Below are positions 4,427-10,514 of a stretch of DNA of 64,000 nt, piece by piece (position 1 is the stretch's first letter; each line of letters starts with the position of its first letter). The DNA is taken from positions 852,001 through 916,000 of the forward strand of contig QCNP01000001.1 of assembly GCA_003210095.1 (NCBI GenBank), in the 5' to 3' direction. Below the pieces are notes generated by a model, which was given only the letters and a program-made list of their open reading frames with translations, ran no database searches and had not been told where the DNA came from. The translations under genes were made by a program, and so were the position numbers. The DNA is from Pelagibacteraceae bacterium AG-426-E17 (GTDB lineage Bacteria; Pseudomonadota; Alphaproteobacteria; Pelagibacterales; Pelagibacteraceae).

Positions 4427-5260
4427 TTGTCCTTATCAATTTTAATAAACGAATACTGGTATTTTATTTTACTTATAGTTTTTGCAGCAACTGCTGTTGG
4501 TTTCTTTGCTGGATTATTTGGAATAGGTGGTGGATTGATTTCTGTTCCATGTCTTTTTTTTATATTTGAAACTTTAAATATTGAAAAAGATTTTTTAATG
4601 CATTTAACAGTTGGTACAGCCTTTACAATAACAATATTTACATCTTCAGCGTCTGTCTTTACCCATTATAAAAATAAATTGGTTGATATAAATGTGGTAA
4701 AAACCTTTGGGTTATTTGTTGTTTTAGGTGTTCTAATGGGAACAGTTTTTGCCGCATATATGAGCACAAAAAGTCTTGTTCTTTTTTTTTCAGTAGTTGT
4801 TTACGTTTTTGGAGCATACTTAATGCTTGCGAACGAACAAGTTAAGAGAGTTAGTATAAATAGAGCATTTTATCCTAAAGCTATCTTTGGTTTAATATCA
4901 GGATTTATATCCGCACCTATGGGTATTACTGGTGCTATGATGAATGTTCCGTTACTACGATACTTAGGTTATCCAATAAGTAAATGCATTGGGAGTGCCG
5001 CAACTATTGGATTATTTATATCTATAACTGGTTCAGTTGGTTTTTTAATTTCAGGTTTTTACTTTAGTGCAAATTTACCTTTTAGTATTGGATTTGTTAA
5101 TATCCCAGCTTTTTTATTGTTTGTCCCAATTACAACTTTTATGGCAAGACTTGGAGCAAACACTGTTTACAAAATGAACAAAATCAAAGCTCAAAGACTT
5201 TTTGGAGTTTTTCTTTATGCTGTTGGAACAATTTTTATATACAGGTATTTTAATATTTAA
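4427..5260 (+). CDS. TauE/SafE family sulfite/anion exporter-like membrane protein (copy 2)
   Basis: VGFFAGLFGIGGGLISVPCL ... GFISAPMGITGAMMNVPLL; TTG start; divergent tandem paralog of the previous gene. Confidence 0.86.
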   Translation: MSLSILINEYWYFILLIVFAATAVGFFAGLFGIGGGLISVPCLFFIFETLNIEKDFLMHLTVGTAFTITIFTSSASVFTHYKNKLVDINVVKTFGLFVVLGVLMGTVFAAYMSTKSLVLFFSVVVYVFGAYLMLANEQVKRVSINRAFYPKAIFGLISGFISAPMGITGAMMNVPLLRYLGYPISKCIGSAATIGLFISITGSVGFLISGFYFSANLPFSIGFVNIPAFLLFVPITTFMARLGANTVYKMNKIKAQRLFGVFLYAVGTIFIYRYFNI

Positions 5261-6705
5261 TTAATCTTTTGATCGTATTCACCAATTTTTCCAGTTTCTT
5301 GTAATAACTTATCAATAAAATAAAAGATCTCTTTTTTTAAATCATCAGACGACGGACTTTCAGTAACTACAACTAAAGAGGGTTTGTTTGAGGAAGCTCT
5401 AATCAATCCCCAAGACCCATCCTCTAATGAAAATCTAATTCCATTGACTGTAAGTATATTATTTATTTTTAGTCCTTTAATTTTAAAATCATTTTCTTTT
5501 AGTTTATTAATTTTATCAATCATTTCATCAATGACTCCGTATTTTTCTTCATCTTTACAAAAAGGACCCATTGTCGGACTTTGAAAGGTTTTAGGTAAAC
5601 TTTTTATTAAAACATCTAACTTTTCATTTTGATTATCCAAAAGGTTACAAACTTGAATTGCAGAATTAATACCATCATCAAAACCATAACCAAGTGGTTG
5701 ATTAAAAAAGAAATGTCCACTCTTTTCAAATCCAGCAATCGCTTTATCCTCATTTACTTTTCTCTTTATGTATGAATGACCAGTTTTCCAATATATTGTA
5801 TTACAATTATTTTTATTTAAAATCTCATCATTCATGAACAAACCAGTTGATTTTACATCAACTACAAATTTTGAATTTTTATGTTGATTTGAAATATTTC
5901 TTGCAATTAATAATCCAATTTTATCTGCAAAAATTTCTTTACCACTATTATCTATAACACCAACTCTATCTCCATCACCATCAAAACCAAAACCCACATC
6001 TGCATTATTTTGTTTTACACATTTTGCAATTTCATGAAGCATTTCCATATCCTCTGGATTTGGGTTGTATCTAGGAAAAGTGTAATCTAAATTACAGTCT
6101 AGTTCTATTACCTCACATCCTATACCTCTTAAAATTTCAGGTGCAAATATACCAGCTGTCCCATTACCACAAGCTGCAACCACCTTTAATTTTTTTGTTA
6201 ATTTATTTTTTGATAATTCTTCGATATAAACTTTATTAAAATTTTTGACTTCTTGATATTTACCCGAACCACTAATAAATTTTTCATTTAAAACGATATC
6301 TTTTAATTCTGACATTTCGTCCTTACAATGTGTTAGTCCTTTCTCTATCCCCATTTTAATACCTGTCCATCCATTTTCATTATGGCTTGCGGTTATCATT
6401 GCAACAGCATCTGAATTTAATTTAAATTGTGAAAAATAAACAGTAGGAGAAAGACATAAACCTATATCTTTTACATTACATCCTGTAGACAAAAGTCCAT
6501 TTACGAAATTTTTTTTAACATTCTCACTGTATGACCTATAATCATGACCAACTATAACGGTTGGATTTTTTTTTGTTTTTATGACCTGTGTTCCGAATCC
6601 TTTTCCGACCGACTCGATTCCCAATTCGTTGATGCTTTCTGGGAATAACCATCTCGCGTCATATTCTCTAAAACCAAAGGGATCTATTTTTTTCTCTTTT
6701 TTCAT
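5257..6705 (-). CDS. Phosphomannomutase/phosphoglucomutase
   Basis: TASHNENGWTGIKMG phosphoserine loop, GFDGDGDRVGVID metal loop, GFEKSGHFFF; internal ATG at 6705 (MKKEKKIDPFGFREYDARW) is the likely start. Confidence 0.92.
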   Translation of the reverse strand: MKKEKKIDPFGFREYDARWLFPESINELGIESVGKGFGTQVIKTKKNPTVIVGHDYRSYSENVKKNFVNGLLSTGCNVKDIGLCLSPTVYFSQFKLNSDAVAMITASHNENGWTGIKMGIEKGLTHCKDEMSELKDIVLNEKFISGSGKYQEVKNFNKVYIEELSKNKLTKKLKVVAACGNGTAGIFAPEILRGIGCEVIELDCNLDYTFPRYNPNPEDMEMLHEIAKCVKQNNADVGFGFDGDGDRVGVIDNSGKEIFADKIGLLIARNISNQHKNSKFVVDVKSTGLFMNDEILNKNNCNTIYWKTGHSYIKRKVNEDKAIAGFEKSGHFFFNQPLGYGFDDGINSAIQVCNLLDNQNEKLDVLIKSLPKTFQSPTMGPFCKDEEKYGVIDEMIDKINKLKENDFKIKGLKINNILTVNGIRFSLEDGSWGLIRASSNKPSLVVVTESPSSDDLKKEIFYFIDKLLQETGKIGEYDQKIN

Positions 6706-6779
6706 GTTGATATTTGTATATTTCTTTAATTTTTTTATTGCATATTTTTTTTCATGTTCTATAAATGTTCTATTGATTT

Positions 6780-6795
6780 CTAATTTATATAGTGT
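6780..6795 (+). promoter_or_regulatory. NrdR-box-like element 1 (CTAATTTATATAGTGT)
   Basis: Right half TATATAGTGT matches the NrdR box consensus as I know it (ACACwATATATwGTGT); 31 bp upstream of a second match; upstream of nrdA. Confidence 0.6.
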
Positions 6796-6810
6796 ATTTA
6801 AGAAATCTGC

Positions 6811-6826
6811 ACACAACATATAGTTG
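6811..6826 (+). promoter_or_regulatory. NrdR-box-like element 2 (ACACAACATATAGTTG)
   Basis: Left half ACACAACATATAG matches the NrdR box at most positions; exactly 31 bp after element 1; just upstream of TATAAT (6833-6838). Confidence 0.65.
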
Positions 6827-6832
6827 TTTTAC

Positions 6833-6838
6833 TATAAT
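6833..6838 (+). promoter_or_regulatory. -10 element TATAAT of the putative nrdAB promoter
   Basis: Perfect TATAAT, 24 nt upstream of nrdA ATG, followed by GGGAG Shine-Dalgarno. Confidence 0.6.
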
Positions 6839-6861: not shown

Positions 6862-8802
6862 ATGAATAAAGTATTGTCTCAGGCCATTAAGAAAGCTGTC
6901 TCTGAATTTAAACCAAAAGTTGAAATTCATAATAAAACTAAAGGTCCTGATTTATTCACATTAAATAATAATACCGAATTATTTCAAAATTCAAAAGGCA
7001 TAACAATTAAAATTGACAGAAGTAGAGACAACAACTTAACAGATTTTGGTAGGGCAACTTTAACTGATAGATATCTTGGTGAGAATGAATCCTTTCAAGA
7101 CCTGTTTGCTAGAGTGGCAAGTCATTATGCAGATGACAATCTACATGCACAAAGATTATATAATTATATAAGCAATCTATGGTTTATGCCAGCAACGCCA
7201 GTTTTATCTAATGGTGGAACAACAAGAGGTTTGCCAATCTCATGTTTTTTAAATGAAGCAAGTGATAGCTTACAAGGAATACTTGGTCTCTGGAGTGAAA
7301 ACGTTTGGTTAGCAGCTCGAGGAGGGGGTATTGGAAGTTATTGGGGCAACCTAAGATCAATTGGCGAAAAAATTGGAAGAGTAGGAAAAACTTCAGGAAT
7401 AATACCTTTCATTAAAGTTATGGATTCTTTAACAATGGCAATCAGCCAAGGCTCTTTAAGAAGAGGATCTGCAGCATGCTATTTACCTATTGATCATCCT
7501 GAAATCGAGGAGTTTATAGAGATGAGAAGACCTACAGGGGGAGATCCAAATAGAAAATCACTTAACTTACACCATGGAGTGCTTGTGTCAGATTCTTTTA
7601 TGAGAGCAGTTGAACTTGATGAACAATGGGCACTCAAAAGCCCTAAAGACGGTGCAGTTCAACAAACAGTATCTGCAAGAAACTTATGGATAAGATTATT
7701 GACTGCTAGAATTGAAACAGGAGAACCATACATCATTTACATTGATACTGTTAATAGACAAATACCACAACACCATAAATTAGCTGGATTAACTGTAAAA
7801 ACTTCAAACCTTTGCAGTGAAATAACTTTACCAACAGGTATCGATAGGGAAGGCAGAGATAGAACGGCAGTTTGCTGCTTGTCATCTTTAAACGTAGAAA
7901 AATACGACGAATGGAAAGATGATGAAAAATTTATAGATGATGTAATGAGATTTTTAGACAATGTATTAAGTGACTTCATCAAAAATGCACCCGAGGAATT
8001 CAGCGATGCTGTGTATTCAGCTACAAAAGAGAGAAGTGTGGGACTTGGTGTGATGGGCTTACATTCTTATTTTCAAAAAAAAATGATACCTTTAGAGTCT
8101 GTAATGAGCAAAGTATGGAATAAAAAAATATTTGAAAACATTCAAAACAAAGTTGATAAATCTTCAAAAGACCTAGCTGAAGAGAGAGGTTCTTGTCCGG
8201 ATGCATCTGAATATGGTTTTAAAGAGAGATTTTCTAACAAAACAGCGATTGCTCCAACTGCTTCCATATCTATTATATGTGGAGGAACATCTCCAGGCGT
8301 AGAGCCTATAGCAGCTAATAGTTATACACATAAAACTTTATCCGGATCTTTTAATGTTAGAAATAAGTATTTAAAAAAAGTTTTAGAAAAACACGGTAAG
8401 AATAATGATGAAATTTGGTCAAGCATAACAACTAATCAAGGCTCAGTTTCTCATTTAGATTTTTTAACCAAAGAGGAAAAAGATGTTTTCAAAACAGCTT
8501 TTGAACTAGATCAAAGATGGCTTATTGATTTAAGTGCTGATAGGACACCACATATATCTCAAGCTCAGTCTATTAACTTATTTTTACCTGCTGATGTGCA
8601 CAAAAAAGATCTACATCAAATTCATTATCAAGCATGGAAAAAAGGTTTAAAAAGCCTTTATTACTGCAGGTCGAAATCAATACAAAGAGCTGAAAATGTT
8701 AATGACGCAAATTCAACAGACATTACAGCAAATGTTTATAAATCAAAAAAACAACCACAAAACGAAGAAAACAAATACGAGGAGTGTTTATCATGTCAGT
8801 AA
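6862..8802 (+). CDS. nrdA: Ribonucleoside-diphosphate reductase, alpha subunit (class I)
   Basis: NLWFMPATPVLSNGGTTRGLPISCFLN, SNLCSEITLP, APTASISIICG, C-terminal ECLSCQ. Confidence 0.95.
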   Translation: MNKVLSQAIKKAVSEFKPKVEIHNKTKGPDLFTLNNNTELFQNSKGITIKIDRSRDNNLTDFGRATLTDRYLGENESFQDLFARVASHYADDNLHAQRLYNYISNLWFMPATPVLSNGGTTRGLPISCFLNEASDSLQGILGLWSENVWLAARGGGIGSYWGNLRSIGEKIGRVGKTSGIIPFIKVMDSLTMAISQGSLRRGSAACYLPIDHPEIEEFIEMRRPTGGDPNRKSLNLHHGVLVSDSFMRAVELDEQWALKSPKDGAVQQTVSARNLWIRLLTARIETGEPYIIYIDTVNRQIPQHHKLAGLTVKTSNLCSEITLPTGIDREGRDRTAVCCLSSLNVEKYDEWKDDEKFIDDVMRFLDNVLSDFIKNAPEEFSDAVYSATKERSVGLGVMGLHSYFQKKMIPLESVMSKVWNKKIFENIQNKVDKSSKDLAEERGSCPDASEYGFKERFSNKTAIAPTASISIICGGTSPGVEPIAANSYTHKTLSGSFNVRNKYLKKVLEKHGKNNDEIWSSITTNQGSVSHLDFLTKEEKDVFKTAFELDQRWLIDLSADRTPHISQAQSINLFLPADVHKKDLHQIHYQAWKKGLKSLYYCRSKSIQRAENVNDANSTDITANVYKSKKQPQNEENKYEECLSCQ

Positions 8803-9803
8803 TTAAAAAAGAAGAAAGCGGAAAAATTATACAACCAAAAAAAATGGGATTATTAGTAGAAAATCCTGTTTATAAGCCATTCAGATACCCATGGTGTTAT
8901 GATGCATGGTTAACTCAGCAAAGAATACATTGGTTACCAGAAGAAGTGCCTCTAGGTGATGATGTTAGAGATTGGCAAAAAAATCTGTCAGTGCCAGAAA
9001 AAAATTTAGTTACCCAAATATTTAGGTTTTTCACCCAAGCAGATGTTGAAGTAAACAATTGTTATCTTAGACATTACACAAGTGTTTTTAAACCAACAGA
9101 AGTTTTAATGATGATGACAGCTTTTGCATCTATGGAAACAGTTCATGTTGCAGCGTATTCTCACTTGCTAGATACAATTGGAATGCCAGAGTCTGAGTAT
9201 TCTGCATTCATGAAATATAAAGAAATGAAAGACAAGTATGACTATATGCAAGGTTTCAATGTTAATTCAAAAGAGGATATAGCAAAGACAGTTGCTGTTT
9301 TTAGTGCTTTCACAGAAGGCCTTCAGTTATTTGCGAGTTTTGCAATATTATTAAATTTCCCAAGACACAATAAACTTAAAGGCATGGGTCAGATCGTTAC
9401 TTGGTCTGTGAGAGATGAAACTCTGCATTGTAATTCAATGATAAGAATATTCAAAGAGTTCATTAAAGAAAATCCAGAAATATGGACTCCAAAACTTAAA
9501 AAAGAAATCTACGATGCATGTAGAACAATTGTTGAGCATGAGGATGCATTTATAGATTTAGCTTTTGAGATGGGACCAATGGAAGGTTTAACTGCTCAAG
9601 AAGTTAAAGATTACATAAGATTTATTGGTAACAGAAGATTAGTTCAACTAGGTTTAGAGGCTATCTATGATGTCGAAAAAAATCCATTAACATGGTTAGA
9701 CACTATGTTAAACGCAGTAGAACATATGAACTTCTTTGAAGGTAGGGCTACAGAGTATTCAAAAGCATCTACACAAGGAAGCTGGGTAGACGCTTTTAGC
9801 TGA
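8793..9803 (+). CDS. nrdB: Ribonucleoside-diphosphate reductase, beta subunit (class I)
   Basis: METVHVAAYSHLL (metal ligands and Tyr), RDETLHC, FTEGLQLFASF; ATG at 8793. Confidence 0.95.
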   Translation: MSVIKKEESGKIIQPKKMGLLVENPVYKPFRYPWCYDAWLTQQRIHWLPEEVPLGDDVRDWQKNLSVPEKNLVTQIFRFFTQADVEVNNCYLRHYTSVFKPTEVLMMMTAFASMETVHVAAYSHLLDTIGMPESEYSAFMKYKEMKDKYDYMQGFNVNSKEDIAKTVAVFSAFTEGLQLFASFAILLNFPRHNKLKGMGQIVTWSVRDETLHCNSMIRIFKEFIKENPEIWTPKLKKEIYDACRTIVEHEDAFIDLAFEMGPMEGLTAQEVKDYIRFIGNRRLVQLGLEAIYDVEKNPLTWLDTMLNAVEHMNFFEGRATEYSKASTQGSWVDAFS

Positions 9804-9809
9804 TATTAG

Positions 9810-10514
9810 TTGGTGGAATACTTTAAATTACCTAAAAACACCGCAAGATTAATTGTTTTACAAAGAATAGAGCTTACAAGTCCTTTTCTTAGAAAATTAA
9901 GAAAGTTATTTGGTAGATATGTCTTTTCTAGTTTTATAACTAAATATTTCTTAAATCCTCGTAACATTGGAAAAGAATACTATCGAGTAATGTTAAAAGA
10001 ATTTTTATCAATTGAACAATTTATCAATCAAAATGACAAATCCTTTCTAAGTATTGGTGCTGGTGTAGGAGGGTTAGAAATAATAATAAACAATAATTTT
10101 AAAAATAATAATTATTATTTTATAGAAAGAAATTTTATATCGAAAAAAGTGAGATATGGTTGGGGTGGAATGATTAATAGTGAAGGTTATAATAATTTAG
10201 AATTACAAAAAGATTTTTTAATAACTAACGAAATGAGCGAAAGTCAAATAAATATCTTTGATTATGATAAAGATACTTTGCCTGAAAAAAAATTTGATGT
10301 AATCATTTCTCTATTATCCTTAGATTACCATTACGATTTTAATCTTTACTCAGAGTATTTAAAAAAGATATCAAAAGATGATACAAAGATAATTTTTGAT
10401 ACTATAAGAGCTGATTATTTTAAAAAGATATTTAAAAATGTTAATATAATCCGTTCTGACGCAAATGTTGTTCATAAATCTAAAAGGATTTTATGCAGTC
10501 ATTTTTTAAACTAA
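9810..10514 (+). CDS. Putative SAM-dependent methyltransferase-like protein, function unknown
   Basis: FLSIGAGVGGLEIII resembles Rossmann motif I and KFDVIISLLSLDY a post-I/IV segment; TTG or GTG start. Confidence 0.55.
   Translation: MVEYFKLPKNTARLIVLQRIELTSPFLRKLRKLFGRYVFSSFITKYFLNPRNIGKEYYRVMLKEFLSIEQFINQNDKSFLSIGAGVGGLEIIINNNFKNNNYYFIERNFISKKVRYGWGGMINSEGYNNLELQKDFLITNEMSESQINIFDYDKDTLPEKKFDVIISLLSLDYHYDFNLYSEYLKKISKDDTKIIFDTIRADYFKKIFKNVNIIRSDANVVHKSKRILCSHFLN

Follow-up and report, generated by a model that had tools for sequence, protein, structure and literature searches.

NrdR acts by a dATP/ATP mechanism at paired boxes separated by 15 to 16 bp (PMC12051234, PMC12176259, PMC9110341). 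In Escherichia coli (nrdHIEF, nrdDG, and nrdAB) and Streptomyces coelicolor (nrdRJ and nrdAB), two 16-bp boxes 15 bp apart lie in the promoter of the ribonucleotide reductase (RNR) operon, and the NrdR protein is composed of a Zn-ribbon and an ATP-cone. Inverting the hallmark C of the box weakens NrdR binding some 50-fold in S. coelicolor (PMC9110341), and at E. coli nrdAB a canonical box is paired with a box of non-canonical centre (PMC12176259). For its part, the SOS repressor LexA has in alphaproteobacteria the operator consensus GTTC-N7-GTTC (cited in PMC12700426), a direct repeat found in the SOS operators of Caulobacter; the main text of that study names no nrd gene. After DNA damage, nrdAB is upregulated in both Vibrio cholerae and E. 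coli; in V. cholerae, LexA fails to bind the nrdA promoter by EMSA and nrdAB lies outside the SOS regulon (PMC5963079).

The nrdAB locus described here, from the SAR11 lineage, shares with E. coli and S. coelicolor the box pair in the RNR promoter and the domain composition of NrdR, and differs from them in a lopsided first box, in C-x-C zinc knuckles in NrdR, and in a LexA box adjoining the pair. As in Caulobacter, the GTTC-N7-GTTC repeat is also present at lexA and umuD; unlike in Caulobacter, it is present at nrdAB as well. In contrast to the V. cholerae nrdA promoter, to which LexA does not bind, the SAR11 nrdAB promoter has a conserved LexA box.

Organization of the nrdAB locus

The locus lies in a window of 64 kb, by which we mean the whole stretch of DNA analysed, from a genome of 1.15 Mb that is 99% complete and whose relatives are uncultured Pelagibacteraceae (SAR11). 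The class I RNR operon and its divergently transcribed neighbour are listed in Table 1, together with the elements found between them. The ATP-cone domain was absent from both NrdA and NrdB. The start of the mutase gene preferred by the first-pass annotation was supported, given that homology starts at residues 1 to 3 in 94 of 110 relatives and that the phase between its ATG and the operator varies among relatives. Phase variation was used in place of a count of in-frame stops in the N-terminal extension because that count also scored the window's own open reading frame as stopped. Directly downstream of nrdB, the open reading frame at 9810-10514 gave a weak, below-cut-off match to a methyltransferase family (PF13489).

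Table 1. Features of the nrdAB locus (window coordinates; information is the mean per column over 78 distinct aligned blocks)
Feature	Position	Strand	Sequence	Information (bits)	Remarks
Phosphoglucomutase/phosphomannomutase-family gene	5257..6705	-			Divergent; start at 6705
LexA (SOS) box	6756..6770	+	GTTCTATAAATGTTC	1.96	GTTC-N7-GTTC; 13/15 positions invariant in 85 distinct regions
Candidate -35	6773..6778	+	TTGATT	1.92	TTG invariant; putative promoter element
NrdR box 1, lopsided	6780..6795	+	CTAATTTATATAGTGT	Right half 1.84, left half 1.06	C4 absent in 85/85
Candidate -10	6795..6800	+	TATTTA		TATATT-like in relatives; T6795 and A6796 invariant; weak consensus match; putative promoter element
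NrdR box 2	6811..6826	+	ACACAACATATAGTTG	1.76	9/16 positions invariant, including C4, A6, A8, T9, T11, and G13
TATAAT of the first-pass annotation	6833..6838	+	TATAAT	0.79	Not conserved
nrdA	6862..8802	+			Large subunit of class I RNR; no ATP-cone
nrdB	8796..9803	+			RNR small subunit; start at 8796 preferred over GTG at 8784 by inspection

A pair of NrdR boxes upstream of nrdAB

The two boxes proposed by the first-pass annotation, their 31-bp offset, and the TATAAT downstream of them were all found at the coordinates given there. The boxes, with a spacer of 15 bp, match the NrdR consensus ACACWATATATWGTGT at 12 (box 1) and 13 (box 2) of 16 positions. A single box was not significant, as one match with at most three mismatches occurred in the window, compared to a mean of 2.05 after shuffling; the case for NrdR sites therefore rests on the pair and on its conservation. 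The pair scores 25 out of 32 and was the only one in the 64-kb window to reach at least 24 with that spacer. A score of 25 was reached in none of 20 dinucleotide-shuffled windows and in none of 2,000 shuffles of the 156-bp intergenic region between nrdA and the mutase gene. Likewise, the half-pair pattern ATNTAGT-N24-ATNTAGT occurred only once in the whole genome, at the nrdAB site. The locus thus carries two 16-bp boxes in the promoter region of an RNR operon, at a spacing within the 15- to 16-bp range.

To describe conservation, 110 nrdA upstream regions were collected (NrdA identity, 83 to 100%), 85 of which were distinct, including that of this genome. They aligned without indels from 6746 to about 6830, with both boxes and their 31-bp spacing conserved in the 85 distinct regions, although most of the genomes come from one genus and the sequences are therefore not independent. 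Information was high in the LexA box, TTGATT, the right half of box 1, and box 2 (Table 1), and averaged 0.99 bits in the spacer between the boxes and 0.61 bits in the leader. Both NrdR boxes and the LexA box were also present in a second Pelagibacteraceae genus (L199, NrdA 80% identical), with one extra base between the LexA box and box 1 compared to the window. Within the 85 distinct regions, the LexA box, TTGATT, and the NrdR boxes kept a fixed mutual register. Neither a LexA-TTGAT pattern nor a box 2 pattern gave matches in the viral_contigs set.

The two boxes differ in quality. In box 2 both halves have their hallmark positions (C4, A6, A8T9, T11, and G13), C4 and G13 among them, while box 1 keeps A8T9, T11, and an invariant G13 and, among the 85 distinct regions, has C4 never and A6 almost never. 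Hence, the description of the boxes as having one strong and one weak half holds for box 1 and fails for box 2. Since box 1 lacks C4 in all 85 regions, what we claim is a pair of NrdR boxes of which one is degenerate. Judged by its sequence, the operator pair is real, essentially as it had been annotated: its score is unmatched in the window and it is conserved without indels. The pair at 6780-6826 is predicted to bind NrdR and to mediate repression of nrdAB.

The LexA box and a probable SOS regulon of the lineage

No element of the region is more conserved than the LexA box, which was missing from the first-pass annotation. By chance, about one GTTC-N7-GTTC repeat would be expected in each window. 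The closest other copy of the nrdA box in the genome was GTTCTATAAAAGTTC, directly upstream of lexA, a gene present with its full domains. Matches to GTTCTATNNANGTTC were found in most genomes of the genus, chiefly at nrdA and lexA, and the reversed pattern was near zero.

A GTTC-type repeat was present upstream of lexA in 13 of 13 cases (L123-L134 among the loci). At umuD, GAAC-N7-GAAC adjoined the gene start in 29 genomes out of 30, among them those of the sister family, and a contig end truncates the remaining locus; the strict LexA repeat lay upstream at loci L352-L370 and L372-L381. The recA gene showed a degenerate GAAC-N7-GTAC in 28 of 30 cases (L234-L263). The motif at umuD and lexA and its degenerate form at recA suggest that the lineage has a small SOS regulon, whose mark nrdAB also carries. 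Accordingly with this picture, LexA may be expected to bind at 6756-6770 and to repress nrdAB. A search of the open-access literature found no report of a LexA site at an alphaproteobacterial nrdAB, although an earlier mention elsewhere is possible; the joint LexA-NrdR operator is thus a variant for which the open-access literature searched yielded no description.

Position of the promoter

The first-pass annotation had taken the TATAAT at 6833-6838 as the -10 hexamer, with box 2 over the -35 region and spacer. Neither point was sustained. Relatives lack TATAAT at that column, where it is private to this genome; the two matches returned by the scan were one locus counted twice. The conserved candidate is instead TTGATT-N16-TATTTA (6773-6800), with the LexA box adjoining its -35 hexamer. 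If this is the promoter, box 1 lies in the spacer between -35 and -10 and box 2 immediately beyond the point where transcription would begin. A consensus scan found no canonical sigma-70 promoter, TTGATT-N16-TATTTA being a weak match, so that conservation is what recommends 6773-6800 as the probable promoter position.

In one subclade (L100-L106, L108, and L111), hexamers resembling TTGTTT-N16/17-TATAAT were observed. There the -35 falls within NrdR box 2, and the -10-like hexamers stop a few bases short of the ATG, with almost no leader. The window, unlike this subclade, has an AGGGAG ribosome site before nrdA. Given these alternative hexamers, promoter use may differ among lineages.

The NrdR protein

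The genome encodes nrdR, on whose presence the first-pass annotation had staked its reading. The gene (L001:1501-1959; G000:C1:965210 on) has a glyA-like gene on its upstream side and a ribD-like gene on its downstream side, both named by inspection. Its product has a Zn-ribbon (PF22811, above cut-off) followed by an ATP-cone, and its structure model (mean pLDDT, 83) found E. coli NrdR structures as best match. D15, R17, and the RRRR stretch, residues that contact DNA in S. coelicolor NrdR (PMC9110341), are invariant.

The Zn-ribbon keeps four cysteines and departs from the arrangement of two CxxC knuckles, which makes it a variant NrdR. At least one C-x-C knuckle was present in 30 of 30 Pelagibacteraceae NrdRs (L158-L164, L324-L343, L349, and L350 among the loci), confined to the first knuckle in this genome and the two nearest to it, confined to the second in 17 proteins, and in both knuckles in 10. 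Two canonical CxxC knuckles were present in the sister-family NrdRs (23) and in five outgroups. No description of the C-x-C variant was found in the open-access literature searched. The knuckle change may be connected with the lopsided box 1, a correlation drawn from two families only.

Distribution in other alphaproteobacteria

A search for the combination covered 88 regions upstream of nrdA in further genera and families of alphaproteobacteria. With a threshold of at least 11 of 12 hallmark positions and a spacer of 15 to 16 bp, an NrdR pair was found in 58 regions (shuffle mean, 0.35). A forward LexA box was present in 10 regions (shuffle mean, 0.85; maximum, 2), and all 10 lie 25 to 72 bp upstream of an NrdR pair, the distance being exactly 27 bp in four regions. 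In several other families, a TTG/GTGACA-like hexamer directly follows the LexA box, comparable to TTGATT here. Given the 10 LexA boxes in 88 regions, the LexA and NrdR combination at nrdA is patchy in the class; it is apparently fixed in Pelagibacteraceae. In three outgroup nrdA regions (L218, L269, and L282), a reverse GAAC-N7-GAAC was observed at much the same distance, 214 to 234 bp, upstream of the NrdR pair, possibly by chance.

A model for dual control and its alternatives

We consider it probable, at roughly 80%, that nrdAB is a dual NrdR/LexA target, controlled through a compound repressor operator in the intergenic region shared with the mutase gene. With an NrdR pair and a LexA box, the promoter probably responds to DNA damage as well as to the supply of nucleotides. 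At high dATP, an NrdR tetramer loaded with dATP/ATP would bridge the two boxes, which are separated by three helical turns, across the promoter and turn nrdAB off; when dNTPs fall, NrdR would release the operator. LexA, just upstream of the -35 hexamer, would repress independently of NrdR, until RecA on damaged or phage-replicating DNA induced its self-cleavage and nrdAB rose together with recA, lexA, and umuDC. Both proteins are thus proposed to act as repressors here. Counting against dual control are the absence of the hallmark C from box 1, the non-canonical knuckles of NrdR, the weak consensus match of the promoter, and the precedent of V. cholerae, where nrdAB is damage-induced without LexA binding (PMC5963079).

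Other readings of the same elements were weighed. NrdR might act by itself, repressing from boxes over the TATAAT at 6833-6838, with the GTTC repeat having no LexA function at nrdAB. The reality of the NrdR pair and the chance frequency of a lone repeat agree with this, but it is made very improbable by the repeat being the most conserved element and matching the lexA box, by the recurrence of LexA boxes beside NrdR pairs in other alphaproteobacteria, and by the lack of conservation of TATAAT. The LexA box could also serve the divergent mutase gene and not nrdAB, since the intergenic region is shared, the box is separated from the mutase ATG by 50 bp and from the nrdA ATG by 91 bp, and the mutase gene adjoins nrdA in nearly all relatives examined. 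However, the LexA box, TTGATT, and the NrdR boxes stay in fixed register, whereas the mutase ATG lies at a variable distance of 50 to 75 bp, and the LexA boxes of other families are similarly placed relative to the NrdR pair of nrdA, so that we regard this assignment as highly unlikely.

A further reading concerns box 1, whose conserved right half could be promoter sequence, box 2 being the only NrdR site. The unconserved left half of box 1, with C4 missing and A6 nearly always so, and the overlap of its right end with the candidate -10 lend it some weight. Nevertheless, the ATNTAGT motif is shared by both boxes at an exact offset of 31 bp, free of indels, and E. coli nrdAB pairs a canonical box with a non-canonical one too; on balance a single NrdR site seems unlikely. 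Within the dual-control reading, we put forward tentatively, at somewhat less than even odds, that the C-x-C NrdR of Pelagibacteraceae reads an asymmetric operator, composed of a full box and a half box, and acts jointly with LexA on a promoter of rigid spacing, the RNR operon thereby integrating dATP and damage signals. If so, with no ATP-cone on NrdA or NrdB, the nrdAB promoter would be the cell's main point of ATP-cone-based dATP feedback. No ATP-cone protein besides NrdR was found in the genome, so that transcription may carry all such feedback in it.

SAR11 bacteria, whose cells rank with the most abundant of the ocean, have kept few regulators. A fixed LexA and NrdR operator suggests that nucleotide sensing and the SOS response are both coupled to their dNTP supply, and offers a mechanism for the induction of host nrdAB during pelagiphage infection. 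Upon infection by phage HTVC027P, which has no nrd genes, SAR11 host nrdA increased 3.1- to 8.9-fold and nrdB 2.5- to 5.8-fold, and host recA, lexA, umuD, and umuC were also upregulated; other replication genes rose too, and no connection between nrdAB and LexA was drawn in that study (PMC12753301). In "Candidatus Pelagibacter ubique," lexA, recA, and mucA share one late iron-stress cluster (PMC2864753). Both data sets fit a common LexA regulon; for nrdAB neither is proof, given the rise of other replication genes in the phage study.

NrdR-like sites in the sister family

In the sister family, which has a class II nrdJ, an NrdR pair was recognized by inspection upstream of this gene, where a LexA box was not seen. 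Also in that family, a pair of half-box repeats resembling those of NrdR, with a 31-bp offset, was observed just upstream of gcrA (PF07750), a cell-cycle regulator (L197:1493-1541, L194, L195, and about 17 more genomes; gene identity checked in three loci), which hints at NrdR control of gcrA.
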